Shown in pieces: positions 11,002 to 60,421 of a DNA stretch of 64,000 nt. The stretch spans positions 372,001 to 436,000 of the forward strand of contig NZ_CP009830.1 of NCBI RefSeq assembly GCF_000959525.1. Direction: 5' to 3'. Position 1 is the stretch's first letter. Each line of letters begins with the position of its first letter. This stretch comes from Burkholderia multivorans ATCC BAA-247. Lineage in GTDB: Bacteria > Pseudomonadota > Gammaproteobacteria > Burkholderiales > Burkholderiaceae. The notes beneath the pieces are model-generated. The model was not told the origin of the DNA. It made no database searches and saw only the letters and a list, made by a program, of their open reading frames with translations. The position numbers were made by a program, and so were the translations under genes.

Positions 11002-11015
11002 GCAACGCGCGTGCC
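11002..11015 (-). promoter_or_regulatory. Sigma-54 promoter of the glgE operon (exact)
   Basis: Minus-strand GGCACGCGCGTTGC matches GGCACG-N4-TTGC at all ten fixed bases. The -12 GC is 48 bp above the glgE ATG, and transcription should start about 12 bp downstream of it. An A/T island (minus-strand ATGTAAAA, 11077-11084) lies 62 bp upstream. Confidence 0.8.
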
Positions 11016-11123
11016 CGCTCCGCGCAGCGCCGCGCGACAACGCCGGCGCGGTGCCGCGCCGATGCGGCCCTGTCGTTTTTACATGAGGTGCGTACCGGGA
11101 ACGCGCGGCGGCGCGGCGCACGC

Positions 11124-11612
11124 TCACATGCGCGGCACCGAGCGGATGTCCGTGCTGTCGCCGAGCGCCGAGGCGTCGTCCGCTTCGGGCAGCGGCGCGC
11201 CGGGGTCGTAGCGCACGATCGCGCCGCGCTCGATGCGGTGCGGGAAATCGGGCGGCGCGTCGACCGTGTCGCCGAAACAGGCGCGCACGTACGCGCGCAG
11301 CAACGCGACGCGCGCATTCGGGCCGCGCGCGGCGCAGGTCGACGGGCCGTCGGCGAACGACGCGTCGCACTCGACCTCGCCGCCGCGCCGCACGATGCGC
11401 AGGTCCGTGACGCGATCGAGCACGGCGCCCGCGTCGGCCCACGAGCGCGACGGCGCGAAGTGCGCGTCGAGCCGGCGCAGCGCGTCGCACGCGGCCGTCA
11501 CGACCACGGTCGGCGTGACGGCCGTGAAGCGCAGTGTGTCTTCGTGGTCGGCGCAGAGGCCGCGCACGCACCAGTAGTCGAGCGCGGTTCCGTCGAGTTC
11601 GTCGATCTGCAT
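11124..11612 (-). CDS. NinX/DUF2591-like small protein
   Basis: 162 residues. The first 20 (LDGTALDYWCVRG) resemble the DUF2591/NinX family, whose members begin with a similar ALDYWVA segment. NinX occurs in lambdoid phages and as stand-alone bacterial genes, and its function is not established. The remainder ends in an acidic tail. GGAGAG stands seven bases before the ATG at 11612. No phage gene is nearby. The gene has its own exact sigma-54 element inside the end of the upstream EEP gene, so it is probably expressed both from that operon and separately. Confidence 0.6.
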   Translation of the reverse strand: MQIDELDGTALDYWCVRGLCADHEDTLRFTAVTPTVVVTAACDALRRLDAHFAPSRSWADAGAVLDRVTDLRIVRRGGEVECDASFADGPSTCAARGPNARVALLRAYVRACFGDTVDAPPDFPHRIERGAIVRYDPGAPLPEADDASALGDSTDIRSVPRM

Positions 11613-11626
11613 GGAGCTCTCCGTCG

Positions 11627-12463
11627 TCAGGGGGCGTCTTTGCGCGCAAGCGGCGTGCCCGGCCGGTCGAACGGTGCGGCGGCCGGCTCCGGCTCCGGCT
11701 GCGGCGCGCGCATCCGCGCGACGAGCGGATAGTGGTCGGACGCGTGCCGCGCGCGGGCGCTGCGATGGACCGCGACGTCGACCAGCAGCTCGCCCGGATG
11801 CACCCAGATCCGGTCGAGCGAGAACAGCGGGCAGACGGTCGGAAACGTGCGCGGCGCGGGCGCGCGCCGGAACCGCGTGACGAGCGCCTGCAGCGCGCGG
11901 CCGCGCACGAACCATTCGTTGATGTCGCCGAGCAGGATCACCGGCATCGCCCCGGTGTCGAACGCGGCGAGCAGCCGCTGCACCTGCGCGCTGCGTTCGC
12001 GCGCGGACAGCCCGAGGTGCGTCGCGACGACGCGCAGCGGGCCGGTGCGGCAGTCGATGTCCGCATCGAGCGCGCCGCGCGGCTCGCGCTGATGGAACGA
12101 CAGATCGAGCGTGCGCGCCGCGCGGATCGGATAGCGCGACAGCACCGCGTTGCCGTAGCGGCGCTCGGCCGTATCGATCGTCGGGCCGGCCGCCGCGTGC
12201 ATGCCGGTCGCGTCGCGCAGATGCGCGAGCACGTCGGGCCCGCGCGTGCCGCCGAGCGGCACTTCCTGCAGCGCGATCACGTCCGCGTCCAGTTCGTCGA
12301 TGACCGCGGCGATCCGGTCCGCTGCGCGCGCGTGCCACGGGCCGTAGCCGCCGTGGATGTTGTACGTCGCGATGCGCAGGTCGCGGCCGCCCGGCGCGGC
12401 CGCGGGCGGCGCGGGGGCCGTGATGACTTCGGGCGGCGCTGCCGTGTGCCGGATCAGCGCCAT
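11627..12463 (-). CDS. Endonuclease/exonuclease/phosphatase (EEP) family protein
   Basis: 278 residues of the metal-dependent EEP fold. Motifs are ATYNIHGGYG (about 32), the metal-binding Glu in ALQEVP, GDINEW and the terminal SDHYPL. Members hydrolyse phosphodiester bonds in DNA, phosphoinositides or sphingomyelin, so the substrate cannot be read from sequence. No signal peptide is seen. The ATG at 12463 overlaps the end of the PLD-VTT gene by 10 bp. EEP genes beside a cardiolipin-synthase-like PLD gene are a recurrent bacterial pairing, which makes a lipid or phosphodiester role at the membrane plausible (inference). Confidence 0.85.
   Translation of the reverse strand: MALIRHTAAPPEVITAPAPPAAAPGGRDLRIATYNIHGGYGPWHARAADRIAAVIDELDADVIALQEVPLGGTRGPDVLAHLRDATGMHAAAGPTIDTAERRYGNAVLSRYPIRAARTLDLSFHQREPRGALDADIDCRTGPLRVVATHLGLSARERSAQVQRLLAAFDTGAMPVILLGDINEWFVRGRALQALVTRFRRAPAPRTFPTVCPLFSLDRIWVHPGELLVDVAVHRSARARHASDHYPLVARMRAPQPEPEPAAAPFDRPGTPLARKDAP
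11646..11659 (-). promoter_or_regulatory. Sigma-54 promoter of the NinX-like gene (exact, intragenic)
   Basis: Minus-strand GGCACGCCGCTTGC, all ten fixed bases. It lies inside the last codons of the EEP gene and 33 bp above the ATG at 11612, in the right orientation. The same 14 bases recur at 15780 and 28008. Confidence 0.7.
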
Positions 12464-14694: not shown

Positions 14695-15029
14695 CGTGCG
14701 TCGACGTCCCGGTCGCCGTCGATGCGCTGCAGCAGCACGTCGCAGCGTGCGCGCAGCGCCTGCATTTCCGGCGAATGCGCGTCGAGGCGTACGCGCTCGC
14801 CGTCGGCCGGCTGGCCGTGCGCCGTCGCGACCTCGTAGATGCCTTCCGCGATCGCCGAGGCGGCTTCGACGATGCGGATCCGGTCGAGCCAGTCGCATTC
14901 GGCGTGGTGGTACGCGAGCCATGCGCGCAGCGCGCCGACGACCTGGCCGATCGTGAGCCACGCGCCGGAACGCATGCGCGCGGCCAGTTGGCTGGTGACG
15001 AGATACGAAAGCAGATCGGTCTGGGTCAC
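14691..15029 (-). CDS. Uncharacterised 112-residue protein
   Basis: Not recognised. Mainly helical and soluble in appearance, with HHAECDWLDRIRIVEAASAIA in the middle and an acidic, Arg-rich C-terminus; no signal peptide or membrane segment. The GTG start at 15029 is supported by AAGGAG six bases upstream and by a GTGA overlap with the mgtC-like stop. It is also coupled by ATGA to the PLD-VTT gene, so it sits between two membrane proteins and may be an accessory to one of them (inference from position only). Confidence 0.75.
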   Translation of the reverse strand: MTQTDLLSYLVTSQLAARMRSGAWLTIGQVVGALRAWLAYHHAECDWLDRIRIVEAASAIAEGIYEVATAHGQPADGERVRLDAHSPEMQALRARCDVLLQRIDGDRDVDAR

Positions 15030-15721
15030 ACGAGACTCCTTGACGAAGTGTCGGGACGGCAGATCCGTACGCCGGCGAGGTTTTGCAGCGTCCGGCAGAT
15101 CGCCGCGAATTCCACCGGGCTCGTTCGCGAGAACGAGACCGAGATGTCGTCGGTGTCCGGATCGTCGTCCGACTGCTGGACGATGAACCGCTTCACGCGC
15201 ACGTGCCGCGTGCCGAGCGCGTCGTGCAGCGTGCGTAGCGTGAGCCCGCCGCGCTCGACGACGAGCCGCAGCGTGCGCTGTTGACGCTGCGCGATGAAGC
15301 GGCGTTCGAGCGGCTTCACGCCCGCGAGGATCACGAGCACGATGACCGTCGCGCCGACCGACGCGACGATCATGCCGCCGCCGACCGCGAGACCGACACC
15401 GGCGACGGCCCAGAGGCTCGCCGCGGTCGTCAGCCCGCGCACTACTTCGCCGCGCAGCAGAATCGAACCGGCACCGAGAAAGCCGATGCCGGACACCACC
15501 TGCGCGGCGACGCGCGACGGATCGAGTACGACGCCGTTGCGGCCGGCGACGTCTTCGAAGCCGTAGGTCGACACGAGCATCGTCAGCGCGGAGCCGACGC
15601 ACACGAGCATGTGCGTGCGCAGGCCCGCGGCCCAGTTCAGCCGCTCGCGCTCGAGGCCGATCACGCTGCCGAGCAGCGCAGCGAGCAGCAGGCGTCCGAG
15701 GAGTTCGACGTGGCCGATCAT
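15026..15721 (-). CDS. MgtC/SapB-family inner-membrane protein (first paralogue)
   Basis: 231 residues: about four to five hydrophobic segments in the first 140 residues with the MgtC signature (GLERERLNWAAGLRTH, GIGFLGAGSILL), then a cytoplasmic C-terminal domain. MgtC proteins support survival at low Mg2+ and in macrophages, partly by inhibiting F-type ATP synthase; true Mg2+ transport is not accepted. GGGAG precedes the ATG at 15721. It is the first gene of an operon with the unknown protein, PLD-VTT and EEP genes, driven by an exact sigma-54 element 58 bp upstream. A second paralogue is at 55502. Confidence 0.9.
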   Translation of the reverse strand: MIGHVELLGRLLLAALLGSVIGLERERLNWAAGLRTHMLVCVGSALTMLVSTYGFEDVAGRNGVVLDPSRVAAQVVSGIGFLGAGSILLRGEVVRGLTTAASLWAVAGVGLAVGGGMIVASVGATVIVLVILAGVKPLERRFIAQRQQRTLRLVVERGGLTLRTLHDALGTRHVRVKRFIVQQSDDDPDTDDISVSFSRTSPVEFAAICRTLQNLAGVRICRPDTSSRSLV

Positions 15722-15779: not shown

Positions 15780-15793
15780 GCAAGCGGCGTGCC
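15780..15793 (-). promoter_or_regulatory. Sigma-54 promoter of the mgtC-PLD operon (exact)
   Basis: Minus-strand GGCACGCCGCTTGC followed by AT, all ten fixed bases, 59 bp above the mgtC-like ATG. A seven-T tract (15866-15872) lies about 75 bp further upstream. Confidence 0.8.
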
Positions 15794-16145: not shown

Positions 16146-16146
16146 C

Positions 16147-16160
16147 GGCACGGCGCTTGC
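16147..16160 (+). promoter_or_regulatory. Sigma-54 promoter of the orphan sdhB (exact)
   Basis: Plus-strand GGCACGGCGCTTGC, all ten fixed bases, starting 2 bp after the stop of the 80-aa gene and 52 bp before the sdhB ATG. Confidence 0.8.
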
Positions 16161-16211: not shown

Positions 16212-16922
16212 ATGGACGACGACACGCGCATCCTCCATATCTATCGCTACGACCCCGATCGGGACGCGGCGCCTTACATGCAGCGCTACGAGATCGCCGT
16301 GCAGCCCGACGACCGGATGCTGCTCGACGTGCTCGGGCGCCTCAAGCGCGAAGACGAGACGCTCTCGTATCGACGCTCGTGCCGCGAAGGGATCTGCGGC
16401 TCCGATGCGATGAACATCAACGGGTCGAACGGGCTCGCGTGCCTGACCAACATGAAGACGCTGCCGCGCGAGATCACGCTGCGCCCGCTGCCGGGCCTGC
16501 CGGTCGTGCGCGACCTGATCGTCGACATGACCGACTTTTTCAATCAATACCACTCGATCAAGCCGTATCTGATCAACGATACGCCGCCGCCCGAGCGCGA
16601 GCGCCTGCAGTCGCCGGCCGAGCGCGACCAGCTCGACGGGCTGTACGAATGCATCCTCTGCGCGTGCTGTTCGACGCAGTGTCCGACGTTCTGGTGGAAT
16701 CCGGACAAGTTCGTCGGGCCGGCCGGGTTGCTCCAGGCGTACCGGTTCATCGCCGATTCGCGCGATCTCGCGACGGGCGAGCGGCTCGATAACCTCGAGG
16801 ATCCGTATCGGCTGTTCCGCTGCCGGACCATCATGAACTGCACGAGCGTGTGCCCGAAGGGGTTGAATCCGGCGCGCGCGATCTCGAACATTCGGGCGAT
16901 GCTGGTGCGGCGCGCGGTGTAA
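16212..16922 (+). CDS. sdhB: Succinate dehydrogenase iron-sulfur subunit paralogue (orphan SdhB)
   Basis: 236 residues, full SdhB length. Ligands for all three clusters are present: [2Fe-2S] C57, C62, D65 and C77 (SCREGICGSD); [4Fe-4S]/[3Fe-4S] C147, C150, C153, C157 (CILCACCSTQCP), C204, C210 and C214 (CRTIMNCTSVCPKG). SdhB carries electrons from the FAD subunit to ubiquinone. No sdhA, sdhC or sdhD is in the window, so this copy must either serve a remote complex or replace the housekeeping SdhB under certain conditions (inference). GGGAGA precedes the ATG at 16212. The preceding sigma-54 element suggests conditional expression. Confidence 0.93.
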   Translation: MDDDTRILHIYRYDPDRDAAPYMQRYEIAVQPDDRMLLDVLGRLKREDETLSYRRSCREGICGSDAMNINGSNGLACLTNMKTLPREITLRPLPGLPVVRDLIVDMTDFFNQYHSIKPYLINDTPPPERERLQSPAERDQLDGLYECILCACCSTQCPTFWWNPDKFVGPAGLLQAYRFIADSRDLATGERLDNLEDPYRLFRCRTIMNCTSVCPKGLNPARAISNIRAMLVRRAV

Positions 16923-17340: not shown

Positions 17341-18969
17341 TCATCGATGAATCGCCGCACGCAGTCTGCGCACATCCTGCGTCGACACCGGCGCCGCGCG
17401 ATTGCCCCATGCGCCGCGCACGTAGCTGACGACCGCCGCGATTTCGCTGCTCGTCAGCGCGCCGCGCATCGCCGGCATGCGCCGCACGCCGCTACGATCG
17501 TCGCTTGGCGCCGGACGCGCACCTTCGACGACGATGCGGATCGCGCTCGTCGGATCGGCCGCGACGACGACCGGATTGCCGGCGAGCGGCGGGCCGTGAT
17601 GCGGTATGCCCGTTCCGTCCACACCGTGACAGCGTGCGCAGAAGCTCGCATATACGCCCGCGCCGGGCGCCTGCTGGCCGCCTTCGGGGCGCGGGCCGGC
17701 CGCGGTCAGCCGCGGCATGCCGACGCCGAGCGGATTCGTCGCGGCAGTCGGTTGCGCGGGCAACGACTTTAGATAGACGGCGATCGCATGGCGATCGCCG
17801 TCGGTCAGCAGCGCGGTGCTTTCGCCGACGACCGGCGCCATCGCACCGAACACCGAACCGTGCCGCGTGTGGCCGTCGCGCAGGAATGCCGCGATGTCGT
17901 CGACGGACCAGCGGCCGAGTCCGTCGTTGTCCGCACCGGTCAGGTTCGGCGCGAACCAGTGATCGGTCACGCCGCCCGTCAGAAACTTCGCGCTGCGCTC
18001 GTCGTAGCCGCGCTCGTTATATGCGGGGCCGCGCGGCGTATGGCAGGCGCCGCAGTGGCCGAGCCCCTGCACCAGGTACGCGCCGCGGTTCCATGACGCG
18101 GAGTGCGACGGCGACGGCACGAAGCGTTCGTCGTTGGCGAACACCAGGCGCCACAGCCCGAGCGCCCAGCGCTGATTGAACGGAAACGGCAGCGCCGTGC
18201 GCTTGCCGGCCTGCGGCGACGGCGCGACGCCGTGCATGAAGTACGCGTAGAGCGCACGCACGTCGTCCGGATGGAGCCGCGCGAACGAGGCATACGGCAT
18301 CGCCGGATAGAGGTTGCTGCCGTCCGCGCGCACGCCGCGCCGCAATGCATCGTCGAACTGCTGCAGCGTGTAGCGGCCGATCCCGTGTACGGGATCGGGC
18401 GTGATGTTGGGCGCATAGATCGGACCGAACGGCGAATTCACCGGCTGTCCGCCCGCGTAGGGCGTGTGGTCGGCCGCATCGTGACATGCGGAGCAGTCGC
18501 CGGCATGGGCGAGATAGCGGCCGCGCTCGATCAGCGCGGCATCGGCATCCGCGGCGGTCGCCGCGACGAGCGGCCGGCGCACGTCGTCGTGCGCCGACGC
18601 ATCCGGCACCGCAGCGCCGGTTCCCGAGGCAGCGGATGCCGACGCTTGCGCGTCCGACGCACCGCCACCCGCCGCCGCACCGCCGTGCCGCGCGGATAGC
18701 CGCGCATCGCGCTCCGCGCGCGCGGACATCGCCGCATCGGCCGGCGCGCGAATCCGCGTGAAGCGCCATCCGGATGCCGGCTCCGGCGCGGACGCCGCCG
18801 ATGCCGCATCGGCCGCATCGGCCGTATCGCGTTGCGCGCTGCCGTCGTCGAGCGGATCGCAGCCGCCGAGCACGGCGGAGAGCGCGAGCGCCACGATCAC
18901 CGGCCGACGCGCGCAGCGCAAGCCAAACCGGAAGCGAAACCGAAAGCGAGCGGGCGAGATCAGCGCCAT
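17341..18969 (-). CDS. Trihaem cytochrome c lipoprotein (alcohol/sugar dehydrogenase cytochrome type)
   Basis: 542 residues. An Arg-rich N-terminus and hydrophobic segment end in the lipobox VLGGC (C37), so the protein is probably anchored in the cell envelope. An Ala/Ser-rich linker (45-140) is followed by three CxxCH haem sites: CSACH (C159), CGACH and CARCH. This arrangement is that of the cytochrome subunit of membrane alcohol/gluconate dehydrogenases, which passes electrons to quinone or an oxidase. It is the last gene of the oxidase operon (10-bp overlap with the preceding gene). It could feed the oxidase subunit II haem c, or accept electrons from the GMC dehydrogenase at 30709, which lacks its own cytochrome gene (inference). 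Confidence 0.92.
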   Translation of the reverse strand: MALISPARFRFRFRFGLRCARRPVIVALALSAVLGGCDPLDDGSAQRDTADAADAASAASAPEPASGWRFTRIRAPADAAMSARAERDARLSARHGGAAAGGGASDAQASASAASGTGAAVPDASAHDDVRRPLVAATAADADAALIERGRYLAHAGDCSACHDAADHTPYAGGQPVNSPFGPIYAPNITPDPVHGIGRYTLQQFDDALRRGVRADGSNLYPAMPYASFARLHPDDVRALYAYFMHGVAPSPQAGKRTALPFPFNQRWALGLWRLVFANDERFVPSPSHSASWNRGAYLVQGLGHCGACHTPRGPAYNERGYDERSAKFLTGGVTDHWFAPNLTGADNDGLGRWSVDDIAAFLRDGHTRHGSVFGAMAPVVGESTALLTDGDRHAIAVYLKSLPAQPTAATNPLGVGMPRLTAAGPRPEGGQQAPGAGVYASFCARCHGVDGTGIPHHGPPLAGNPVVVAADPTSAIRIVVEGARPAPSDDRSGVRRMPAMRGALTSSEIAAVVSYVRGAWGNRAAPVSTQDVRRLRAAIHR

Positions 18970-19361
18970 GGACTGCACGGCCCCACGAAACCTGTGACGA
19001 TCCCGGTAAACACGAGACCGACGACGAACCCGAGCGCGGCGAGCACCGCGCAGCGGACCAGAAACCGCGTGCTGTCGTCGCGCGTCGCCGCGCGGATGTC
19101 GGGCTCGTCGGGCCGGCGCCAGACACGGGCGATCCACGCCGCACACGCGGCCGCGAGCGCGAACGCGCCGCCCGCGATGAGCGCGAGCCAGACGCCGACA
19201 TGCGCCCAGCGCGGCGCGAGCTGCGCGACGCCGAGCGGATAGCACGCGGTCGACGCGAGCGTCTCGGACGCAGCCATCTGCGCGAACCACAGCGCGGGCG
19301 CGCCGACGAGCCCGGCCGCGATCGCGAGCAGCGGCGTCAACGAACGGCGGGCGTGTGTCAT
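18960..19361 (-). CDS. Small membrane protein of the oxidase operon
   Basis: 133 residues with three likely membrane segments (about 8-30, 55-80 and 105-128). Family not recognised. ATGA overlap with the ctaDE fusion upstream, AGGAGG eight bases before the ATG at 19361, and a 10-bp overlap with the cytochrome c gene downstream place it inside the oxidase operon. It may be a small structural subunit or an assembly factor of the complex (inference from position and size). Confidence 0.75.
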   Translation of the reverse strand: MTHARRSLTPLLAIAAGLVGAPALWFAQMAASETLASTACYPLGVAQLAPRWAHVGVWLALIAGGAFALAAACAAWIARVWRRPDEPDIRAATRDDSTRFLVRCAVLAALGFVVGLVFTGIVTGFVGPCSPWR

Positions 19362-21994
19362 CCGGGCCTCCTGAGCCAGTACGGCGTCACGTACAGCGCG
19401 GTGAAGATGAACAGCCAGACGAAATCGACGAAGTGCCAGTACAGCGCGCCGACGGTCAGCGCGACGCGCCGCTCGCGGTCGAAGAAGCCGGCCGCGGTCC
19501 AGCCGGCGAGCAGCGCGAGAATCGCGAGCCCCGCGACGACGTGCGCAAGGTGAAAGCCCGTGATCGTGAAATACAGGCTGCCGTACAGATGGGCGGTCGG
19601 CCCGTACGGATGCTCGCGCCATTCGTGCAGCTGGACGAGCGCGAACGCGACGCCGAGCACGAGCGCGACGGCGAGCGCGGCGACGGCACGCGGCCGACGG
19701 CCGGCGCGCACCGCCCGTTCGGCGAGCCAGACGAACACGCTGCTCGACAGCAGCACGGCCGTGTCGACGCCGGCGAGCCCGAGCTTCGGCATCCCTTCGG
19801 GCGGCCACGGCGCGGCCGACTGCGACTGGAGGTAGAAATAGCTGAACAGCAGATAGCCGAACAGGCCGGCCTCGGTCACGACGAGCGTCAGCACACCCCA
19901 CCAGCCGCCCGCGCGTTTGCCGCAGCTGCCGACCGGCAGCGGCGCGCCATACGGCGCGGGCGCGGCCGGCGGTGCAGCGGCAGCGGCCGGCTCGTGCATC
20001 GTGAACGGCGCGGGCGGCGGCACGCCGTCGCGCTCGGGGGCGGGGGCGCGCTGGCCGAGCGAGCGGCGCGGCCACAGCCACGCGCCGAGCGCGATCGCGC
20101 AGCCGAGCGCGGCAACGCCGACGAGCGTCGGCGAGCGCACCAGCATCGCGGCGAACACGGCCGTCGCGAGCAGCGACAGCACGAACGGCACGCAGGTGTC
20201 CTCCGGCATCTTGAGGATCGCGCTCGGCGTCGCGGCGAGCGGCGACACCGCGAGCGCCTCGCGCCCGTCGGCGAGCCGGTAGCCGACGCGCAGGCTCGAA
20301 CGGCGCGGCTCGCCGCGCGTTTCCCACAGTGGATGGCGCGACGCGATCAGCGGCAGCACCGCGAAGTTGTAGGCGGGTGTCGGCGACGCGACCGACCATT
20401 CGAGGCCCGGCGCGCCCCACGGATTGTCGCCGGCGCGCGCGCCGCGCCGCGCGCTGACGAGCGCGTTGATCACGAACATCACGATGCCGATGCCGAACAC
20501 GAACGAGCCGATCGTCGTCAGCAGGTTCGACGTATCCCAGCCCATGCCGGACGGGTAGGTGTAGATGCGGCGCGGCATCCCTAGCAGCCCCGACACGTGC
20601 ATCGGAAAAAAGCCGACGTTGAAACCGATCAGCACGACCCAGAACGTCCAGCGGCCGACGCGCTCGTTCATCATCCGGCCCGTGAACTTCGGAAACCAGT
20701 AGGTGATGCCGCCGAGCACCGGAAACACGTTGATCCCGAGCAGCACGTAGTGCAGATGCGCGACGACGAAGTACGTGTCGGTCAGCTGCCAGTCGAGCGG
20801 CACGGCCGCCGTCATCACGCCCGATACGCCGCCGATCACGAACATCAGCACGAAGCCCGCGAAGTACAGGAACGGCGTGCGGAACACGGGCCGCCCGGTC
20901 CAGATCGTCGCGATCCACGCGAACACGGCGACCGCGCTCGGAATCGAGATCAGCATGCTGGCCGCGCCGAAGAACGCGAGCGCGAGCGGCGCGATGCCGG
21001 TCGCGAACATGTGATGCACCCAGACCTCGAAGCCGATCAGCATCGTCGCGACGGTCGACACCGCAACGGCTTCGTACGCGACGAGCGGCCGCCGGCAGAA
21101 CGTCGGCAGTGCATCGGACACGATCCCCATCGCGGGCAGCACGACGACGTACACCCACGGGTGCGCGAACATCCAGAACAGGTGCTGCCAGAGCAGCGGG
21201 CGGCCGTCGTGCGCGACGTCGAAGAAGTGCGTGCCCGCATTGCGGTCGAGCCACAGCAGGAAGAACGCCAGGCTCACCGACGGCACCGCGACCAGATTCG
21301 CGACGGATGCGGTCAGCGTGCCCCACACGATGATCGGCAGCCGGTCGATCGACATGCCGTGCGCGCGCATGCGCAGCAGCGTGACGACGAAGTTCGCGGC
21401 GCCGCCCGTCGTCGAGATGCCGAGCAGGATCATCCCGAGCGCATAGATGTCGATGTTCGCGCCCGCGCTGTAGTCGAGCGACGTGAGCGGCACGTAATTG
21501 AACCAGCCGCCGTCGGGCACCGCGCCGAGCGGAAAGCTCGCGTAGAGGAACAGCCCCGCGAACAGGAACACCCAGTACGAGAACGCGTTCAGCCGCGGAA
21601 ACGCCATGTCGCGCGAGCCGAGCATCAGCGGCCACAGATAGTTCGCGAAACCGGACAGCACGGGCAGCGCGTACAGGAAGATCATCGTCACGCCGTGCAT
21701 CGTGAACAGCGCGTCGTACTGCGCGGGCGTGAGCAGCGTCGCGTTCGGCCGCGCGAGCTGGATGCGCATCACGAGCGCCTCGACGCCGCCGAGCAGCAGA
21801 AACGCGAAGGCGGTGACGATGTAGCGCAGGCCGATCCGCTTGTGGTCGACGGTGCCGAGCCAGCCGCGCCAGCCCGGCTCGGACTCCCACAGCGCGGCGA
21901 GCGCGCGCTCGTCCGGCGAGCCGGGCGGCGCGTCGCCGAGATCCGGCACGCGCTCGAGCACGGGGCGGGAGTCGTGGGTGACGGCCATCGGCAT
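19358..21994 (-). CDS. ctaD: Haem-copper oxidase subunits I+III fusion (CtaD-CtaE), unusual proton channels
   Basis: 878 residues. Residues 45-560 are subunit I and about 690-878 subunit III. Haem and copper ligands are intact: H100 (low-spin haem), H278, H327, H328 (CuB), H413 (haem a3) and H415 (low-spin haem), plus cross-link Tyr Y282. The D-channel entrance D129 (SRDMAFPR) is kept. The D-channel Glu of HPEVY is W280 (HPWVY), with no compensating Tyr-Ser pair before it, and the K-channel Lys of PTGVKVF is A356 (PSAVAVF). The enzyme should reduce O2 with cytochrome c electrons, but its proton route is uncertain. Transcribed from coxB, 7 bp away. Confidence 0.93.
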   Translation of the reverse strand: MPMAVTHDSRPVLERVPDLGDAPPGSPDERALAALWESEPGWRGWLGTVDHKRIGLRYIVTAFAFLLLGGVEALVMRIQLARPNATLLTPAQYDALFTMHGVTMIFLYALPVLSGFANYLWPLMLGSRDMAFPRLNAFSYWVFLFAGLFLYASFPLGAVPDGGWFNYVPLTSLDYSAGANIDIYALGMILLGISTTGGAANFVVTLLRMRAHGMSIDRLPIIVWGTLTASVANLVAVPSVSLAFFLLWLDRNAGTHFFDVAHDGRPLLWQHLFWMFAHPWVYVVVLPAMGIVSDALPTFCRRPLVAYEAVAVSTVATMLIGFEVWVHHMFATGIAPLALAFFGAASMLISIPSAVAVFAWIATIWTGRPVFRTPFLYFAGFVLMFVIGGVSGVMTAAVPLDWQLTDTYFVVAHLHYVLLGINVFPVLGGITYWFPKFTGRMMNERVGRWTFWVVLIGFNVGFFPMHVSGLLGMPRRIYTYPSGMGWDTSNLLTTIGSFVFGIGIVMFVINALVSARRGARAGDNPWGAPGLEWSVASPTPAYNFAVLPLIASRHPLWETRGEPRRSSLRVGYRLADGREALAVSPLAATPSAILKMPEDTCVPFVLSLLATAVFAAMLVRSPTLVGVAALGCAIALGAWLWPRRSLGQRAPAPERDGVPPPAPFTMHEPAAAAAPPAAPAPYGAPLPVGSCGKRAGGWWGVLTLVVTEAGLFGYLLFSYFYLQSQSAAPWPPEGMPKLGLAGVDTAVLLSSSVFVWLAERAVRAGRRPRAVAALAVALVLGVAFALVQLHEWREHPYGPTAHLYGSLYFTITGFHLAHVVAGLAILALLAGWTAAGFFDRERRVALTVGALYWHFVDFVWLFIFTALYVTPYWLRRPG

Positions 21995-22001
21995 CCTCCG
22001 T

Positions 22002-23021
22002 TCAGTGCAGCGTCGCGAGATAGGCGGCGAGATCGTCGGCGTCGCGCGGCGCGAGCGCGAACGACGGCATCAGCGTCTGCGGCTTGATCTGCTGCGCGTG
22101 CGCGATCCAGCGGCGCAGGTTGTCCGGCGTGTTGTCGAGCGTGCCGGCCGCGAGCGACCGGCGCGACGCGAGGTGCGTGAGGTCGGGACCCGCATCGCCG
22201 GCCGCATCGGTGCCGCGCACCGCGTGGCAGCCCGCGCAGCGCGCGGCGAACACGCGCGCGCCGTGCGCGGCCGCGCCTGCGGGCGGTGCGGCGGCCGGCT
22301 GGCGCTGCGCGTCGAGCCACGCGCGAAACGCGTCGGGCGGCTGCGCGACCACGTCGAACGCCATGTGCGCGTGCTGCGCGCCGCAGTACTGCGAGCACTG
22401 GCCGCGATAGACGCCGGGCCGGTCGGCCTGCAGCCACTGCCGGTTCGTCTGGCCGGGAATCGTCTCGGTCTTGCCCGCGAGCTGCGGCACCCAGAATGCG
22501 TGGATGACGTCCGCGCTCTTCAGTTCGATCGCGATCGGCTCGCCCACCGGAATATGGATTTCGTTCGCGGTGACGAGCGCCGGTTCGCCCGGATAGCGCA
22601 CGGCCCACCACCAGTCGTGCGCGATCACGGTGATCGTCAGCGCGGGCGGGCGCGGCGGATAGGCGACCGCGCCCAGCACGCGCAGCATGTAGACGAGCGC
22701 GCCGAACAGCAGCACGGCCGACACCGCGCTGCCGATCGCGACGAAGCGCACGCCGTCGCCGCCGCGGGCCTCGCGCCTGCGGCGGCGAAACAGCGCCAGC
22801 GCGAGCAGCGTCGCGATCGCGATGCAGACGAACGTGCAGAGCGCGAGCAGCGCCCACCCGAGCACGAACACCGGCCGCGCGGCGGGGCCGGCCGCGTGCG
22901 CGACATACGCGAGCGGCAGCGGTTCGGCGGCGGCCTGCGCGCATGCAATGGCTGCGGACGCAACGATACACGCGAGGGCGCACGCGACGCGGCGCACGTT
23001 CGGGGAAAGCGGGACCAGCAA
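22002..23021 (-). CDS. ctaC: Cytochrome c oxidase subunit II with fused cytochrome c (caa3 type)
   Basis: About 339 residues. Signal-like N-terminus, two membrane segments (about 45-70 and 90-112), a cupredoxin CuA domain with IHAFWVPQLAGK and ligands CSQYCGAQHAHM, then a class I cytochrome c domain (CAGCH, distal Met in LMPSFAL). It receives electrons from soluble or membrane cytochromes and passes them to subunit I. The start is taken at TTG 23021 because AAGGAG lies five bases upstream and the signal-like segment begins there; no ATG fits. First gene of the oxidase operon. Confidence 0.9.
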   Translation of the reverse strand: MLVPLSPNVRRVACALACIVASAAIACAQAAAEPLPLAYVAHAAGPAARPVFVLGWALLALCTFVCIAIATLLALALFRRRRREARGGDGVRFVAIGSAVSAVLLFGALVYMLRVLGAVAYPPRPPALTITVIAHDWWWAVRYPGEPALVTANEIHIPVGEPIAIELKSADVIHAFWVPQLAGKTETIPGQTNRQWLQADRPGVYRGQCSQYCGAQHAHMAFDVVAQPPDAFRAWLDAQRQPAAAPPAGAAAHGARVFAARCAGCHAVRGTDAAGDAGPDLTHLASRRSLAAGTLDNTPDNLRRWIAHAQQIKPQTLMPSFALAPRDADDLAAYLATLH

Positions 23022-23207: not shown

Positions 23208-23221
23208 GGCATGCCGGTTGC
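23208..23221 (+). promoter_or_regulatory. Sigma-54-like promoter of the SDR-GH15 operon (9/10)
   Basis: GGCATGCCGGTTGC; one fixed base differs. The same 14 bases occur at 36435 upstream of another gene. 80 bp before the GTG at 23301. Confidence 0.5.
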
Positions 23222-23300: not shown

Positions 23301-24284
23301 GTGAAAACCGTCGCGATCACGGGCGCGAGTGCCGGCGTCGGCCGCGCGACCGCTCATGCCTTTGCCCGGCTCGGCGCGAACGTCGCGCTGCTGGCGCGCG
23401 ATCCGCGCGCGCTCGAGGACGCCGCCGCGGAAGTGCGGGCGTACGGCGTGCAGGCGCTGCCGATCGCGGTCGACGTTAGCGACGCCGCCGCGCTCGATGC
23501 GGCCGCCGCGCGCATCGAGCGCGAGCTGGGGCCCGTCGACGTGTGGGTCAACAACGCGATGGTCACCGTGTTCGCGCCGTTCGACGCGATCGCGCCGGAG
23601 GATTTCGCGCGCGTGACCGACGTCACCTATCTCGGCTGCGTGAACGGCACGCGCGCGGCGCTGGCGCGGATGCGCACGCGCGATCGCGGCACGATCGTGC
23701 AGGTCGGCTCGGCGCTCGCGTATCGGTCGATTCCGCTGCAGGCGCCGTATTGCGGCGCGAAGCATGCGATCCGCGGCTTCACCGACGCGCTGCGCTGCGA
23801 GCTGCTGCACGACGGCAGCCGCATACGCGTGACGATGGTGCAACTGCCCGCGATCGATACGCCGCAGTTCGACTGGGCCGAATCGGAACTGCCGAACAAG
23901 CCGCGGCCCGTCGCGCCGGTATACGCGCCGGAAGTCGCGGCCGATGCGATCGTGCGCGCCGCGCGTCGGCCGTGCCGCGAACGCTGGGTCGGCTGGTCGT
24001 CGCTCGCGGCGATCCTCGCGAACGGCGTCGCGCCGGGCTGCTTCGACCGCTATCTCGCGTACACGGCCGTGCGCGCCCAGCAGCGCGCGGAGCCGGCCGG
24101 CGTGCGCGCGTCGAACCTGTGGGAGACGGTGCCGGACGGGCACGCGACGCGCGGCGCGTTCACCGACGAGGCGCACCGCACGGGCGCGGACGGCGCGCTC
24201 GGCTCCGCGCGCGCGCTCGCGTTCGGCGCGGCGTTCGTGCTGGTCGCGGCCGGTGTCGCGGCCGCGCGGAAGCTGAACCGATGA
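23301..24284 (+). CDS. Short-chain dehydrogenase/reductase with C-terminal membrane segment
   Basis: 327 residues. Classical SDR Rossmann fold: GASAGVG for the nucleotide (residues 8-14), NNAM, catalytic Ser in GSALAYR and YxxxK in YCGAKHA. Residues 250-327 extend past the fold and end with a hydrophobic segment (about 300-320) and Lys/Arg, suggesting membrane tethering. Substrate unknown. The GTG at 23301 has GGAGG eight bases upstream. ATGA overlap with the GH15 gene makes the two co-translated. Confidence 0.87.
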   Translation: MKTVAITGASAGVGRATAHAFARLGANVALLARDPRALEDAAAEVRAYGVQALPIAVDVSDAAALDAAAARIERELGPVDVWVNNAMVTVFAPFDAIAPEDFARVTDVTYLGCVNGTRAALARMRTRDRGTIVQVGSALAYRSIPLQAPYCGAKHAIRGFTDALRCELLHDGSRIRVTMVQLPAIDTPQFDWAESELPNKPRPVAPVYAPEVAADAIVRAARRPCRERWVGWSSLAAILANGVAPGCFDRYLAYTAVRAQQRAEPAGVRASNLWETVPDGHATRGAFTDEAHRTGADGALGSARALAFGAAFVLVAAGVAAARKLNR

Positions 24285-28007: not shown

Positions 28008-28021
28008 GCAAGCGGCGTGCC
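28008..28021 (-). promoter_or_regulatory. Sigma-54 promoter of the ThDP-enzyme gene (exact)
   Basis: Minus-strand GGCACGCCGCTTGC, all ten fixed bases, identical to the elements at 11646 and 15780; 72 bp above the ATG at 27936. Confidence 0.8.
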
Positions 28022-32418: not shown

Positions 32419-32432
32419 GGCACGGTGCCTGC
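32419..32432 (+). promoter_or_regulatory. Sigma-54-like promoter before DUF305-cydAB (9/10)
   Basis: GGCACGGTGCCTGC; only the first T of the -12 differs. 57 bp before the DUF305 ATG. Confidence 0.5.
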
Positions 32433-32881: not shown

Positions 32882-32923
32882 GCGCGCATGGCGACCGCGC
32901 CGTCGCGCCTGACCGGAGGTCCC

Positions 32924-36363: not shown

Positions 36364-36364
36364 T

Positions 36365-36428: not shown

Positions 36429-36434
36429 GGCCCG

Positions 36435-36448
36435 GGCATGCCGGTTGC
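36435..36448 (+). promoter_or_regulatory. Sigma-54-like promoter directly after the repeat arrays (9/10)
   Basis: GGCATGCCGGTTGC, identical to the element at 23208; one fixed base from GGCACG-N4-TTGC. 107 bp before the ATG at 36556. Confidence 0.55.
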
Positions 36449-39580: not shown

Positions 39581-39594
39581 GCAAGCCGCGTGCC
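39581..39594 (-). promoter_or_regulatory. Sigma-54 promoter of the NUDIX gene (exact)
   Basis: Minus-strand GGCACGCGGCTTGC, all ten fixed bases, ending 14 bp before ATG 39567. Confidence 0.75.
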
Positions 39595-40252: not shown

Positions 40253-41170
40253 TTACACGCCCGGCGTGCCGGACACCGGCGGCACCGGCGATGTCGTGCT
40301 GTCGTGCGGTGCACCGGCGCCGAGCTCGGCACCGGTCGTCGGATCGCAGTTCGGGTCGGACGCGAGCCGGCGCGCCATCGCTTCGAGCGCCTGCGACTGC
40401 GTCGGATCGACTGCGCCCGTCGCGAGGCCGTCGCCGCCGTCGACGGCCGGCTCGCCACGCCGCACCGACAGCGCATCGCCGCGATTCCACGGGCCCGGCA
40501 TCGGCTCCGCGCCTTCCTGCATCCGGAAGTACACGCGGTCGTACGGCTCCATCGGCGGCAGCTTGCCGGGCGGGAAGTTCGCGGTGATCGCGTAGAGCGC
40601 CTTCTCGAACGACTTCTGGTGCGACACTTCGCGCGTCATCAGGAAGCCGAGCGCTTCGCGCACGCTCGGATCGTCCGACACGTTGATCAGCCGTTCGTAG
40701 ATGATCTTCGCGCGCGCCTCGGCCGCGATGTTCGAGCGCAGATCGGCGGTCGGCTCGCCGATCGTGTCGATGTACGCGGCGCTCCACGGCACCGCGCCCG
40801 AATTCGTCAGCGGCGAACCGGCGCCGTACAGCAGCTGCGTCACGTGGCTGTCGTTGCCCGCGCCGTTCAGCTTGCGGTACAGCTCGGCCTGTTCGTCGAC
40901 TGCTTCCGCGAGCTCGCCCTTCGCGCCGCGGTTCAGCATCGCGACGAGCGAGCCGATCACTTCCAGGTGGCTCAGCTCCTCGGTCGCGATGTCGAACAGC
41001 ATGTCCTTGCGGCCCGGATCTTCCTCGGTGATCGCCTGCGTGAAGTAGCGCATCGCGGCGGCGAGTTCGCCCTGCGGTCCGCCGAACTGTTCGAGCAGCA
41101 GGTTGGCGAGACCGGGGTTCGGCGCGTCGACGCGCACCGTGTACTGCAATCGGGTGTTGTGAATGAACAT
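40253..41170 (-). CDS. Manganese catalase
   Basis: 305 residues. Di-manganese site pattern: Glu in ELAAAMRYFTQ, ELSHLEVIG, Glu in AEARAKIIYERL, and EVSHQKSFEKAL. It disproportionates H2O2 without haem in the cytoplasm. The C-terminal 60 residues (Asp/Pro/Ser rich) are low complexity. GGAGG lies six bases before the ATG at 41170. An IHF-like element is 109 bp upstream, with a weak sigma-54 candidate between. Confidence 0.93.
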   Translation of the reverse strand: MFIHNTRLQYTVRVDAPNPGLANLLLEQFGGPQGELAAAMRYFTQAITEEDPGRKDMLFDIATEELSHLEVIGSLVAMLNRGAKGELAEAVDEQAELYRKLNGAGNDSHVTQLLYGAGSPLTNSGAVPWSAAYIDTIGEPTADLRSNIAAEARAKIIYERLINVSDDPSVREALGFLMTREVSHQKSFEKALYAITANFPPGKLPPMEPYDRVYFRMQEGAEPMPGPWNRGDALSVRRGEPAVDGGDGLATGAVDPTQSQALEAMARRLASDPNCDPTTGAELGAGAPHDSTTSPVPPVSGTPGV

Positions 41171-41588: not shown

Positions 41589-41687
41589 GGCTGCGCGACG
41601 CCGCGCGGCCGGTGCAACCGTCGTTGTAAAAAATGCGCGTCGGAGCGGCTGCCGCGTCGTCGGTGCGACATGGATAGGAGCCGGGCA

Positions 41688-41701
41688 GGCGCGGCACTTG
41701 C
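41688..41701 (+). promoter_or_regulatory. Sigma-54-like promoter of the efflux operon (9/10)
   Basis: GGCGCGGCACTTGC, one base off, 68 bp before emrA. The A/T island TTGTAAAA (41624-41631) lies between it and the divergent promoter at 41575. Confidence 0.45.
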
Positions 41702-43173: not shown

Positions 43174-43260
43174 CCGGCCGCCGCTGCATGCGGCGCGCCG
43201 CGCACGGAGCGCAACGATGTCCGACCTTCGACTGCCGTTCATCCGAGCGGCCCTCGGCCG

Positions 43261-57504: not shown

Positions 57505-57556
57505 GATCGTCCTCCGTGATGATCGCGGCCGCGGAATCGGCCGTCACGATGGACGA

Positions 57557-57570
57557 GCATCGCGCGTGCC
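57557..57570 (-). promoter_or_regulatory. Sigma-54-like promoter of the 42-aa protein (9/10)
   Basis: Minus-strand GGCACGCGCGATGC, identical to the element at 41575. Confidence 0.5.
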
Positions 57571-57616
57571 GCAGGCGCCGCACACGGTACGCACCGGCAA
57601 CGCGGCCGCTACGCGC

Positions 57617-59896
57617 TCACAGTTCCGGCTGCCCGTCGACCTGCGGCAGCGGCGGAACGGGCGACGCGGCCGGCACGGGCGCCACGGATGCGACGGATGC
57701 CACGGGCGCCAGCGGCGGCGCATGCACGGGGTCGCTGTCGTCCATCGCGCGATGCAGCGTGGCCGGATCGACCGGCTTCACGAGATGATGGCGGAACCCC
57801 GCTTCGAGGCAGCGTTCGCGATCGGCGATCCGGCCGTAGCCGGTCAGCGCGAGGAACGTGCAGGGCTTGTCGGTCTCGATCGCTTTCAGCCGCCGGATCA
57901 GTTCGTAGCCGTCCATGACCGGCAGCCCGATATCGAGGATCGCGACGTCGGGCTCGTGCGAGCGGAACGCGCCGAGCGCGGACAGCGGGTCGTGCACGAC
58001 CGCGACGTCGTGCCCCGCGTCGCGCAGCCACTGCGCGAGCGTCGCCGCCGCGTCCTCGTTGTCGTCGACGAGCAGCACGCGGCGGCGCGTGCCGACCGGC
58101 ACCGCGACGGGCGGATGTTCGAGTTCGCGCGCGTCGGCCTCGACTGCAGGCGGCCGATATTCGGGCAGCGTCACCGTGAACGTGCTGCCGAGACCGGGGC
58201 CCGCACTGTCGGCGCGGACGGTCCCGCCATGCAGCATCACGAAGCTCTTCACGAGCGCGAGGCCGATGCCGAGGCCGCCGTCCATGCGCCCCGGCTCGCC
58301 GCCGAGCCGGAAAAACGGTTCGAAGATGCTGTCGAGCCGGTCCGGCGGAATGCCCGCGCCGCTGTCGCGCACTTCGATGACGATCGTGTCGCCGTCGCCG
58401 CGCGCGACGTGCAGCCCGATGTCGCCGCCCGGCGCCGTGTACTTCGCCGCGTTGGTCAGCAGGTTCGCGACGACCTGCGACAGCCGCACCGGATCGCCGT
58501 GACAGCGGACGTCCGCGTCGATGTCGACGTGCAGCCGATGGCGGCGCTGTTCGAGCAGCGGGCTCGCGACTTCGACCGCGCGGTCGACGATGTCGCCGAG
58601 CCGCACGGCTTCCTTCTTCAGCTCGATCTTGCCGCGCGTGATGCGCGACACGTCGAGCAGATCGTCGATCAGCCGCACCATGTGATCGAGCTGCCGCTGG
58701 ATGATCGCGATCTCGTTCGGCGTCGCGTGCCCTTCGCGGCTGCGCACGAGCTCGAGCGCGAGCGAGATCGGCGTCAGCGGATTGCGCAGTTCGTGGCCGA
58801 GCACGGCGAGGAACTGGTCCTTCGCGTGATTGGCGTCGCGCAGCTCGGCGAGCAGCCGGTCTCGCTCCGCGTTGGCCGCCTGCAGCTTCTCGCGCGCGGC
58901 GACGTGCTCGGTCACTTCGACCGCGCTGACGATCACGCCGATGCCGTCTGCCTGCGGCTGCGGGTTGAAGTGCAGCCGATAGACGCGCGCGCCCTCAGGC
59001 GTCGCGCGGTCGCGATGTTCGCCGATCGTCGTCGACACGCCGTGCGCGCGCGCATCGTCGAGCGCGCGCGTGACGGCCGGCGAGTCCGCGCCGGGCATCA
59101 CGGCGGCGAGCGGCCGGCCGACGATGTCGGTGCGTCCGCACATCGCGGAAAACCGGTGGTTCGCGATCACGATGCGGTGTTCGGGGCCGGCGAGCAGCGC
59201 GATCGGCAGCGGCGCGTGCATCAGCACGCCGTTGCGCTGGCGCTCGGCGTCCTCGCGGCGGCGGATCTCGGCGCCGAGTGCGCGCGAGCGCTGCTGCGAC
59301 AGCGCGAGCGTCAAATGCAGCTCGCGCTCGTCGTTGCGCAGCGACGCGGCCGGCAGCACGCGCCGATGCAGCGCGCAGACGTGGCGAAACAGCGTCGATT
59401 GCTCGGCGCCCGGAAACGCATCGTGCGGATAGCCGCAATAGAGCGAGAAGCGGTGCCGCTCGATCAGCTCGTTCCAGAGCGCCTCGAGCCGCAGCGCGGC
59501 GTCCGGCTGGCCGCGCGCGCAGAGCACGGCGACCATTTCGCCGAACGCATGCACCGGCCGGCCCGCGGCGATCGCGGCTTCGACGATCGCGCCGACCGAG
59601 CGCTGAAAACGGTCGCGATCGGGCATGTCGCCGTTCATGAAGCGCGCGAGCAGCGCTTCCGCGTCCGACACGAACACGCGCCGGCGTGCCGGCTCGCCGA
59701 TCGCCGCGACCAGCGCGCCGAGCCGCTCGACGACGTCGGCGAGGCGGTCGGCGCGCACGATCACGATCGCGCTGCCGCCGCTGCGCAGCGCTTCGCCCGC
59801 GAATGCGACGACCTCCGGCAGCAATTGCTCGACGGAATCGTAGAACTGGACGAAATGGTCGGCGCCGCTCGGCGCCGGTTCCAGCGGAGAAACCAT
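57617..59896 (-). CDS. Hybrid histidine kinase: MEDS-PAS-HisKA-HATPase-REC
   Basis: 759 residues, no membrane segment, so a cytoplasmic sensor. MEDS (DcmR-type) domain at 12-175 (HFVQFYDSVEQLLPEVVAFAG), PAS about 222-335, HisKA with phospho-His H368 (GHELRNPLTP), HATPase with N482 (NLLTNAAKY), DSGAGIP and GLGIGLALVK, and a receiver domain from 605 with D611-D612 and phospho-Asp D655 (LDIGLPVMDGYE). The C-terminal tail is Ala/Pro/Val rich. MEDS domains sense small organic signals in some methylotroph and archaeal systems. The gene has an exact sigma-54 element 207 bp upstream, placing it inside the putative regulon. Confidence 0.92.
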   Translation of the reverse strand: MVSPLEPAPSGADHFVQFYDSVEQLLPEVVAFAGEALRSGGSAIVIVRADRLADVVERLGALVAAIGEPARRRVFVSDAEALLARFMNGDMPDRDRFQRSVGAIVEAAIAAGRPVHAFGEMVAVLCARGQPDAALRLEALWNELIERHRFSLYCGYPHDAFPGAEQSTLFRHVCALHRRVLPAASLRNDERELHLTLALSQQRSRALGAEIRRREDAERQRNGVLMHAPLPIALLAGPEHRIVIANHRFSAMCGRTDIVGRPLAAVMPGADSPAVTRALDDARAHGVSTTIGEHRDRATPEGARVYRLHFNPQPQADGIGVIVSAVEVTEHVAAREKLQAANAERDRLLAELRDANHAKDQFLAVLGHELRNPLTPISLALELVRSREGHATPNEIAIIQRQLDHMVRLIDDLLDVSRITRGKIELKKEAVRLGDIVDRAVEVASPLLEQRRHRLHVDIDADVRCHGDPVRLSQVVANLLTNAAKYTAPGGDIGLHVARGDGDTIVIEVRDSGAGIPPDRLDSIFEPFFRLGGEPGRMDGGLGIGLALVKSFVMLHGGTVRADSAGPGLGSTFTVTLPEYRPPAVEADARELEHPPVAVPVGTRRRVLLVDDNEDAAATLAQWLRDAGHDVAVVHDPLSALGAFRSHEPDVAILDIGLPVMDGYELIRRLKAIETDKPCTFLALTGYGRIADRERCLEAGFRHHLVKPVDPATLHRAMDDSDPVHAPPLAPVASVASVAPVPAASPVPPLPQVDGQPEL

Positions 59897-60421
59897 TGTT
59901 GTGTCTCGCTACGGGTTGCCGTGAAGCGTTGCGCACGGTGGTCGCCGTGGTACCGCGCGCGCTGCCGCATGGCCATGCTCGTCCTCGCGGTCGTTGCGCG
60001 CGCCGCCGGCAGGCGATGCGCGCACGACACCGGACGAGTCGTTTCCTGTCGTTGCCCCAAACCACGGCAGTCTGACGATGCCGCAATGCGGTAGCCGGGC
60101 GTAGCAATGTGCGTGCCGCGCCCCGGCGTCCGCCCGGACGACCGCCTGGCCGCGCGGGACGGGGCGGCCGCGCCGCGCGCGAGTCGGCCCTCGTGCGTGC
60201 GGCGCTTGTAAATTCTGCATCGTGTGTAGCGGACGGACAAGCCGCGGCGCGTGCGGCGGCGTGCACGGCGGGCCGGTCGCCGCGGATTCCCGCCAATTCG
60301 CCGCATGGTCGCACGCCACCGTCGCACGCGCGTCGGAATGGCGCTTGCTTGCGGCCACGCTGCAGGCCGCCGCCGCTCCGGCGGCGGCGTACCGTTGCAG
60401 CCGCATCTACCGGAAAGAACC
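59897..60421. other. 525-bp divergent promoter region
   Basis: No gene supported. Carries the exact minus-strand sigma-54 element at 60104, the A/T island TTGTAAAT (60206-60213) about 90 bp above it, and a weaker plus-strand match, GGAATGGCGCTTGC (60335-60348, 8/10), 73 bp before ATG 60422. Confidence 0.6.
60104..60117 (-). promoter_or_regulatory. Sigma-54 promoter of the hybrid kinase gene (exact)
   Basis: Minus-strand GGCACGCACATTGC followed by T, all ten fixed bases; predicts an untranslated leader of nearly 200 bases before ATG 59896. Confidence 0.75.

Follow-up and report, generated by a model that had tools for sequence, protein, structure and literature searches.

Predicted sigma-54 promoters dispersed around a second sigma-54 gene on the smallest replicon of Burkholderia multivorans

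The smallest of the three replicons of Burkholderia multivorans ATCC BAA-247 (C1, 550,289 bp; the 6.32-Mb genome consists of contigs C1 to C3) appears to be a pC3-type megaplasmid. Here we describe a 64,000-nucleotide stretch of it (C1:372001-436000, the window), in which copies of the sigma-54-type -24/-12 element GGCACG-N4-TTGC stand in front of dispersed genes, together with the surrounding island, which encodes a second sigma-54 factor (RpoN2) and two enhancer-binding proteins. Positions without a prefix follow window numbering and those prefixed C1, C2 or C3 replicon numbering. The wider region scanned spans 226 kb (C1:300001-526000). Genes were called with our own codon-usage script rather than a standard gene finder (178 calls), domains were taken from Pfam matches (90 of the 178 called proteins were scanned), and chance expectations came from 100 dinucleotide shuffles. 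For comparison we used 61 Burkholderia genomes, the window's own included, and a family-wide set of 120 genomes, 11 of them Burkholderia; sites were also scanned orthologue by orthologue in 35 related loci, dropping gene copies that start at a locus end.

Elements of the window and the genes behind them

The elements and the genes they precede are listed in Table 1. The GlgE-led gene run also holds, further along, a GH77 4-alpha-glucanotransferase protein, and genes standing first behind sites of the wider island include BON, SDR, CBS-pair, DUF3175 and DJ-1/PfpI proteins as judged by Pfam. All seven exact elements of the original prediction were recovered, each in line with a gene start; like the other exact sites of the 226-kb region they are intergenic (16/16) and lie 33 to 207 nt upstream of a same-strand gene. 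The prediction had put the chance expectation below one, which agrees with 0.38 from the shuffles, none of the 100 reaching seven. The GG-N10-GC hallmark of -24/-12 promoters is present at the elements at its fixed spacing. When the spacer was varied (GGCACG-Nk-TTGC, with k from 0 to 12 in the window and the 226-kb region and from 0 to 10 in 36 rpoN2 loci of relatives), the window gave seven matches at N4 and none or one at any other length, the region 16 versus 0 to 3, and the relatives 103 versus 2 to 9.

Genome-wide, there are 59 exact matches versus 24 to the reversed pattern, and seven of the 59 fall in the window, which is 1% of the genome. The genome-wide density, put forward with the original prediction as a comparison, is not equal to that of the window: 109 exact sites per Mb inside versus 8.3 per Mb outside (Poisson p approximately 1.5e-6). 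From the density outside the 226-kb region (7.05 per Mb), 1.6 sites are predicted within it and 16 are present (p 2e-11). Placement changes with match quality in the same region, as 16 of the 22 one-mismatch sites passing a relaxed pattern are intergenic and in line and four lie inside genes, and for two-mismatch sites the figures are 3 and 21 of 25.

The one-mismatch class carries less weight. Eight such elements had been predicted in the window, which in fact holds 15. Those at 23208, 32419, 36435 and 41688 lie between genes, with a gene downstream, and satisfy the relaxed pattern; those at 23071, 41575, 57557 and 55353 (originally given as 55351) are mismatched where that pattern allowed none. 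Exact and one-mismatch matches together number 22 versus 11.8 expected, with one of 100 shuffles reaching 22, so that the one-mismatch class as a whole is little above chance, and the 15 on their own are close to it. The predicted coverage of most of the window did not hold, given that the 11 promoters retained (seven exact, four one-mismatch) precede only a subset of the operons; the sole element preceding the caa3-like oxidase (17341-23021) is the degenerate one at 23071.

Among orthologues in the 35 related loci, an exact site precedes gene g047 in 14 of 15 cases, g058 in 13 of 15, g061 in 6 of 7 and g037 in 4 of 5. For g045 the site is exact in 9/17 and has one mismatch in 6/17, and for g046 the corresponding counts are 5/15 and 9/15. 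Genes without a site here (g036, g038, g039 and g053 to g057) have none with zero or one mismatch across the same loci. In an earlier form of the scan, the antisense control stayed low unless a second promoter lay in the sequence concerned. At the glgE promoter, the site is exact in 12 of 15 sequences, those of the window and of 14 relatives. The strict spacing, the placement and direction of the sites and their conservation among relatives point the same way, and the elements are almost certainly genuine sigma-54 promoters. The dispersed sigma-54 regulon of the original prediction is well supported by these sequence comparisons, but it is not confined to the window, as nine of the 16 exact sites lie outside.

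Table 1. Promoter elements, candidate upstream activating sequences (UAS) and associated genes. Positions follow window numbering unless prefixed; distances are from element to gene start unless stated otherwise.
Feature	Position	Strand	Remarks
GlgB branching enzyme, GlgE run (PF22019, PF02922, PF02806)	1957..4155	-	
Trehalose synthase/maltokinase-like fusion, second gene of GlgE run (PF00128, PF16657, PF18085)	4152..7562	-	
GlgE, alpha-1,4-glucan:maltose-1-phosphate maltosyltransferase, first gene of run (PF11896, PF21702)	7559..10954	-	
Predicted sigma-54 element, GlgE-led glucan-trehalose operon	11002..11015	-	exact; exact before glgE in 11/14 relatives
Candidate UAS TGTAAA in CATGTAAAAACGACAG, glgE promoter	11078..11083	-	kept in 13/14 relatives
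Predicted sigma-54 element before gene 11124-11612 (PF10765 match)	11646..11659	-	exact; 33 nt
Predicted sigma-54 element before MgtC-family gene 15026-15721 (PF02308)	15780..15793	-	exact; 58 nt
Predicted sigma-54 element before SdhB-like iron-sulphur protein gene 16212-16922 (PF13085, PF13534)	16147..16160	+	exact; 51 nt
Candidate UAS TGTAAA	23150..23155	+	52 nt before -24 GG of 23208 element
Predicted sigma-54 element (GGCATG...TTGC) before SDR and GH15 genes 23301-26071 (PF00106, PF00723)	23208..23221	+	one mismatch, intergenic
Predicted sigma-54 element before PoxB-like thiamine diphosphate (ThDP) enzyme gene 26116-27936 (PF02776, PF00205, PF02775)	28008..28021	-	exact; 71 nt
Predicted sigma-54 element (GGCACG...CTGC) before DUF305 gene and cytochrome bd-type oxidase gene pair 32489-35351 (PF03713, PF01654, PF02322)	32419..32432	+	one mismatch, intergenic
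Predicted sigma-54 element (GGCATG...TTGC) before low-affinity iron permease-like gene 36556-37068 (PF04120)	36435..36448	+	one mismatch, intergenic
Predicted sigma-54 element before NUDIX gene 39052-39534 (PF00293)	39581..39594	-	exact; 46 nt
Candidate UAS TGTAAA (TTGTAAAAAATGCG)	41625..41630	+	57 nt before -24 GG of 41688 element
Predicted sigma-54 element (GGCGCG...TTGC) before HlyD/MFS efflux gene pair 41770-44853 (PF16576, PF07690)	41688..41701	+	one mismatch, intergenic
Predicted sigma-54 element before MEDS-PAS-HisKA-HATPase-REC hybrid kinase gene 57617-59896 (PF14417, PF08448, PF00512, PF02518, PF00072)	60104..60117	-	exact; 207 nt
Candidate UAS TGTAAA (TTGTAAATTCTGCA)	60207..60212	+	orientation opposite to 60104 element, 88 nt away
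Divergent enhancer-binding-protein gene pair, both GSFTGA	C1:330457-331500 and 331849-333216		

Some further features of the window stand apart. The hybrid kinase gene at 57617-59896 encodes an N-terminal MEDS sensory domain and is itself behind an exact site, and its product may be a feedback sensor. Directly upstream of the 36435 element, short tandem arrays with units near GAAGCAC and CATCGGCG (36255-36434) form a possibly length-variable stretch. The 14-mer GGCACGCGCGATGC is present in two copies, at 41575 and 57557 (minus strand), and a small called open frame lies downstream of each. A Mn-catalase gene (40253-41170) was considered as a regulon member and rejected for the window genome; 0/14 related copies have an exact site and 1/14 has a one-mismatch site, 316 nt upstream. 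This gene is present in 10/18 genomes with RpoN2 and in 1/11 without.

RpoN2 and the GSFTGA activators of the island

The sigma-54 DNA-binding family matches two genes in the genome, at C3:3109795 (RpoN1) and at C1:353442 (RpoN2). The rpoN2 frame (C1:352491-353918) lies 18 kb left of the window and encodes 475 amino acids, with the AID (PF00309), core-binding (PF04963) and DNA-binding (PF04552) domains all above cut-off. RpoN2 and RpoN1 share 45% identity where they align, and the C-terminal stretch reads ARRTVTKYRQ in RpoN2 and ARRTVAKYRE in RpoN1; the closest named record is from Burkholderia pseudomultivorans LMG 26883 (99%). Exact sites stand around the gene at C1:349735, 350074, 360554 and 361757, and the island as a whole is larger than the window, covering about 314-432 kb of C1. 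Just downstream of rpoN2 are Ku and LigD end-joining genes (C1:354947-358792).

An enhancer-binding activator gene, which the original prediction had suggested seeking near the window, is indeed present in the same island: the divergent pair of Table 1 and rpoN2 lie 18-42 kb left of the window. Neither member carries the canonical GAFTGA loop. The protein encoded at C1:331849-333216 (455 amino acids) has receiver, AAA+ and helix-turn-helix domains. Across the genome we found 20 full enhancer-binding proteins, plus seven weak partial matches, and the loops of the 20 comprise 14 GAFTGA, one GAYTGA, one GAFDGA and four GSFTGA; only five of the full genes are on C1, two of them inside the island. 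GSFTGA loops have been reported in published activators (PMC4676750, PMC11999139). Outside the island, a paralogue (66%) of the receiver-less GSFTGA activator lies approximately 6-7 kb from two divergent exact sigma-54 sites (C2:1341264-1342235 and C2:1348299-1348766) and may run a second small regulon. The fourth GSFTGA protein is encoded on the largest replicon (C3:1717787-1718287), with an exact site at C3:1715985 within approximately 2 kb.

RpoN2 orthologues (65-100% identity, RpoN1 giving 43-46%) occur in 50 of the 61 Burkholderia genomes and are missing from 11, including one genome with a completeness of only 82%. The same 50 have the receiver activator (best match 81-100%), and the same 11 lack it (Fisher p 2e-12, uncorrected for ancestry). 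Its receiver-less partner is tied less strictly, as there is a further paralogue with 63-69% identity, which two of the genomes lacking RpoN2 have as well. By our own thresholds, 59 of the 120 family genomes have RpoN2 and the receiver activator, two RpoN2 only and four the activator only. The two genes are less than 30 kb apart in 46 of the 59, and less than 11 kb apart in 40; the other 13 have no such pair within 30 kb, some through different contigs of drafts. Enhancer-binding-protein frames are present at 23 of 28 rpoN2 loci of relatives, and all 35 such frames carry GSFTGA, in a search also able to detect GAFTGA and GAYTGA; 13 of the 28 loci had been chosen for holding the activator. Seven of the 13 Burkholderia loci with the activator have a hybrid-kinase frame immediately after the receiver-activator frame or overlapping it. 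The GSFTGA loop thus accompanies RpoN2 loci but is not unique to them.

Promoter numbers and the presence of glgE also follow RpoN2. The mean number of exact sites per genome is 59.9 with RpoN2 versus 42.4 without (reversed control, 31.2 versus 29.2), and glgE is present in 14/18 genomes with RpoN2 and in 0/11 without (E 1e-60), although phylogeny, or the loss of part of a replicon, may account for some of both differences. As none of the 11 has glgE, the gene was ruled out for testing site loss in genomes without RpoN2.

The rpoN2 promoter, an upstream element and position -26

The rpoN2 gene has its own predicted sigma-54 promoter, with T at -26 and a TGTAAA element upstream. In 35/35 relatives, a sigma-54-like site lies 38-59 nt before rpoN2; compared with the island consensus, one is exact, 18 have one mismatch and 16 have two, and 34/35 have T at -26. 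An alignment of 14 relatives has two conserved blocks amid diverged DNA, TTGTAAAAAA and TGGCAYG-N4-YTGC, mostly 73-75 nt apart. At 15 rpoN2 loci of other family members, inspected by eye, a TGG(C/T)A-type promoter is visible in 13, each with A/T after the GC, and TGTAAA in nine. The glgE promoters also carry the word: among 14 relatives plus the window, the script offset from the -24 GG is 64-65 in 12 and 73 in two, and the word is missing in one.

TGTAAA is thus a candidate UAS at the rpoN2 and glgE promoters. In the 50 genomes with RpoN2, the composite TGTAAA-N48-78-GGCAYG-N4-YTGC gives 105 matches, compared with 12 for the reversed control; in the 11 without RpoN2 the figures are 4 and 0. 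However, the rpoN2 and glgE promoters were the source of this pattern and account for many of its matches. In the window genome all three matches (rpoN2, glgE and 23150) are in the island. Within the 226 kb, 4/11 TGTAAA words are upstream of a listed site, such stretches being 3.5% of bases; some of this excess is bound to arise from the higher frequency of such words in intergenic DNA. Unsupervised searches gave little. With a zero-order background, 27 upstream sequences yielded only compositional CGCG patterns. With a third-order background and 23 of the 27 sequences (four divergent-pair partners were dropped), a TTGTAAA-like 14-mer and a different-looking 18-mer were returned, overlapping in many places; the 18-mer scored 64.7, barely above the 51.5-63.1 obtained in five null runs, which were made for the 18-mer only. 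Because this search is so near the null and the word is missing from some island promoters, TGTAAA can only be a candidate, suggested by its conservation at two promoters and by a composite count that is not independent of them. Separately, a TTGTAAAA word at C1:348584 stands where a receiver-domain gene ends, away from any called sigma-54 site, and there are similar places in several relatives; it could be an unrecognised enhancer for a neighbouring gene.

Position -26 may distinguish the two kinds of promoter. T is present there in 2 of the 26 island promoters (14 exact and 12 one-mismatch sites) and in 8/101 exact sites near rpoN2 in relatives, and in 8/14 exact or one-mismatch sites close to enhancer-binding-protein genes, a set that includes intragenic sites (p 0.001 versus the island). 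Accepted sites right of the island on C1 have it in 4/6, and the base after GC is A/T in 9/26 island sites. The difference between island and rpoN2 promoters at -26 is only suggestive.

A possible circuit, its alternatives and known systems

We consider it likely that the island elements belong to a dedicated regulon of RpoN2 and a GSFTGA activator that serves stress and energy genes, with RpoN2 rather than the housekeeping RpoN1 most likely the factor. RpoN2, encoded inside the cluster, would read the island promoters. The activators would be the divergent pair (C1:330457-333216), the receiver-domain protein being the prime candidate. A sensor kinase, perhaps the hybrid kinase at C1:334951-337254, would phosphorylate this protein, which would then bind a TGTAAA-containing site approximately 50-90 nt ahead of the -24 element and from there remodel RpoN2-RNA polymerase. 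Output would comprise glucan and trehalose metabolism, oxidases, BON, CBS and DJ-1/PfpI proteins and efflux, presumably in response to a stress signal. The label of stress programme is the least certain step and only suggestive, as its basis is gene content and one published target, katE, whose expression falls in a B. pseudomallei rpoN2 mutant; two amino-acid enzymes were also lower on gels, and katE is the sole transcript-level target described in that account (PMC4745423). RpoN1 could start the circuit, in the order RpoN1, RpoN2, island, because the rpoN2 promoter has T at -26 and the same upstream element, much as Ralstonia rpoN2, reported to have a sigma-54 promoter, requires rpoN1 for expression (PMC4371752).

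A broader reading, in which a sigma-54 stress programme of the Burkholderiaceae runs through an RpoN2 co-evolved with GSFTGA activators and a promoter class without T at -26, and in which a canonical promoter on rpoN2 and RpoN2-class promoters on the island form a sigma-54-to-sigma-54 cascade, is tentative, and we would not bet on it. Its odds are lowered by the 43 exact sites elsewhere in the genome, of which 36 likewise have no T at -26 (7/43 have it, and roughly half of the 43 may be chance).

Several observations pull against assigning the island to RpoN2 and its neighbours, the low frequency of T at -26 elsewhere and the origin of the composite pattern among them. Most island promoters do not have TGTAAA, and the unsupervised motifs are barely above null or had no null run. 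Two of the four GSFTGA proteins are on C2 and C3, and the AcoR-like Ralstonia Rsc3129 is also reported as GSFTGA (PMC4676750), so the loop is not exclusive to RpoN2 partners. The co-occurrence in Burkholderia may mean shared loss of one replicon region and not regulation. The Ku/LigD genes, stress genes of the island that adjoin rpoN2, have no sigma-54 site of their own, and upstream of the Mn-catalase gene no site is better than two mismatches. The pC3-borne caa oxidase operon of B. cenocepacia H111 is described as not expressed in the reported conditions (PMC11742914).

The strongest alternative is that the promoters are genuine and served by RpoN1, encoded on C3, with assorted local activators, RpoN2 being redundant or antagonistic. 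The core hexamers are canonical, so RpoN1 could read the same promoters, and the 36 sites without T at -26 mean that the island promoters do not have to form a class of their own. Moreover, Ralstonia rpoN2 mutants are reported without an observed phenotype in metabolism or virulence, and an antagonistic role has been proposed (PMC4676750), which, with the dependence of Ralstonia rpoN2 on rpoN1, fits this alternative. We nevertheless judge it unlikely, given that RpoN2 is kept throughout the 50 genomes together with one particular GSFTGA activator, that promoter enrichment follows RpoN2 presence, that the island surrounds rpoN2, and that katE responds to the loss of RpoN2 in B. pseudomallei.

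Less probable still is a mosaic of independently acquired operons with different activators, clustered where accessory genes insert. The downstream genes are biochemically unrelated, a minority of promoters carry the candidate UAS, and 20 full enhancer-binding proteins are available in the genome; but only five of their genes are on C1, two of them in the island, at glgE and rpoN2 many species conserve the UAS and the promoter as a pair with nearly constant spacing, and promoter positions are conserved gene by gene. That the elements are chance or compositional matches without promoter function can practically be dismissed: the 24 reversed-pattern matches do mean that single chromosomal matches are often chance, and one-mismatch sites in the window are near expectation, but this explanation is contradicted because only the N4 spacing is enriched, and also by the shuffles, the placement of all 16 exact sites and their conservation.

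We found no description of a regulon of this kind in the open-access literature searched. Other bacteria place stress and reserve genes under RpoS or extracytoplasmic function (ECF) factors. If the assignment to RpoN2 is correct, such genes would here be tied to ATP-driven, enhancer-dependent initiation, an example of stress genes outside sigma-70-type control. The role of RpoN2 was left open by the published work on Ralstonia (no phenotype) and B. pseudomallei (katE lowered); our analysis lists candidate targets, names a likely partner activator and offers both a candidate enhancer sequence and a suggestive promoter difference, and why two sigma-54 factors are kept becomes directly testable.

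Among known systems, the lxa (low-oxygen-activated) locus of B. cenocepacia J2315 is also a Burkholderia stress locus, with universal stress proteins and a chromosome-2 position. We considered an lxa identity for the hypoxia theme and dropped it, as no Usp domain was found among the 90 scanned of the 178 called proteins. Strain H111 is described as being without lxa (PMC3759415). In Cereibacter sphaeroides, RpoN1, RpoN2 and RpoN3 work with NifA, FleQ and AprX, so that, as proposed here, sigma-54 paralogues each have their own activator, and RpoN1 and RpoN2 are reported to be separated by -11 recognition and by contact with the cognate activator (PMC11999139, citing earlier work). Unlike here, that organism is alphaproteobacterial, and the reported outputs are nif, flagella and xrpA rather than a stress island (PMC11999139). 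The B. pseudomallei factor (sigma N2), as described, is likewise a second sigma-54, encoded on a secondary replicon and with an effect on a stress gene, although the published account mentions no activator or promoter cluster (PMC4745423).

Similar in layout, as published, is Ralstonia solanacearum GMI1000, which has a megaplasmid rpoN2 (Rsp1671) with a sigma-54 promoter and two GSFTGA activators of neighbouring locus numbers, Rsp1667 and Rsp1668, for which RpoN2 is the predicted target (PMC4676750, PMC4371752). It differs in that these accounts report no rpoN2 phenotype and describe no stress island or TGTAAA element. A similar setting is pC3 of the B. cepacia complex, like C1 a small third replicon, and one tied to stress tolerance. 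Unlike here, no sigma-54 control is described for it in the account of H111 (PMC11742914), in which cio-2 is up 3.5-fold in late stationary phase and, without roxS or anr, changes little in liquid and drops approximately two-fold on plates. As the window does, the H111 pC3 carries oxidases of the caa3 and cio-2 types (PMC11742914), and its caa operon, silent in the reported conditions, might offer a way to find the missing signal.

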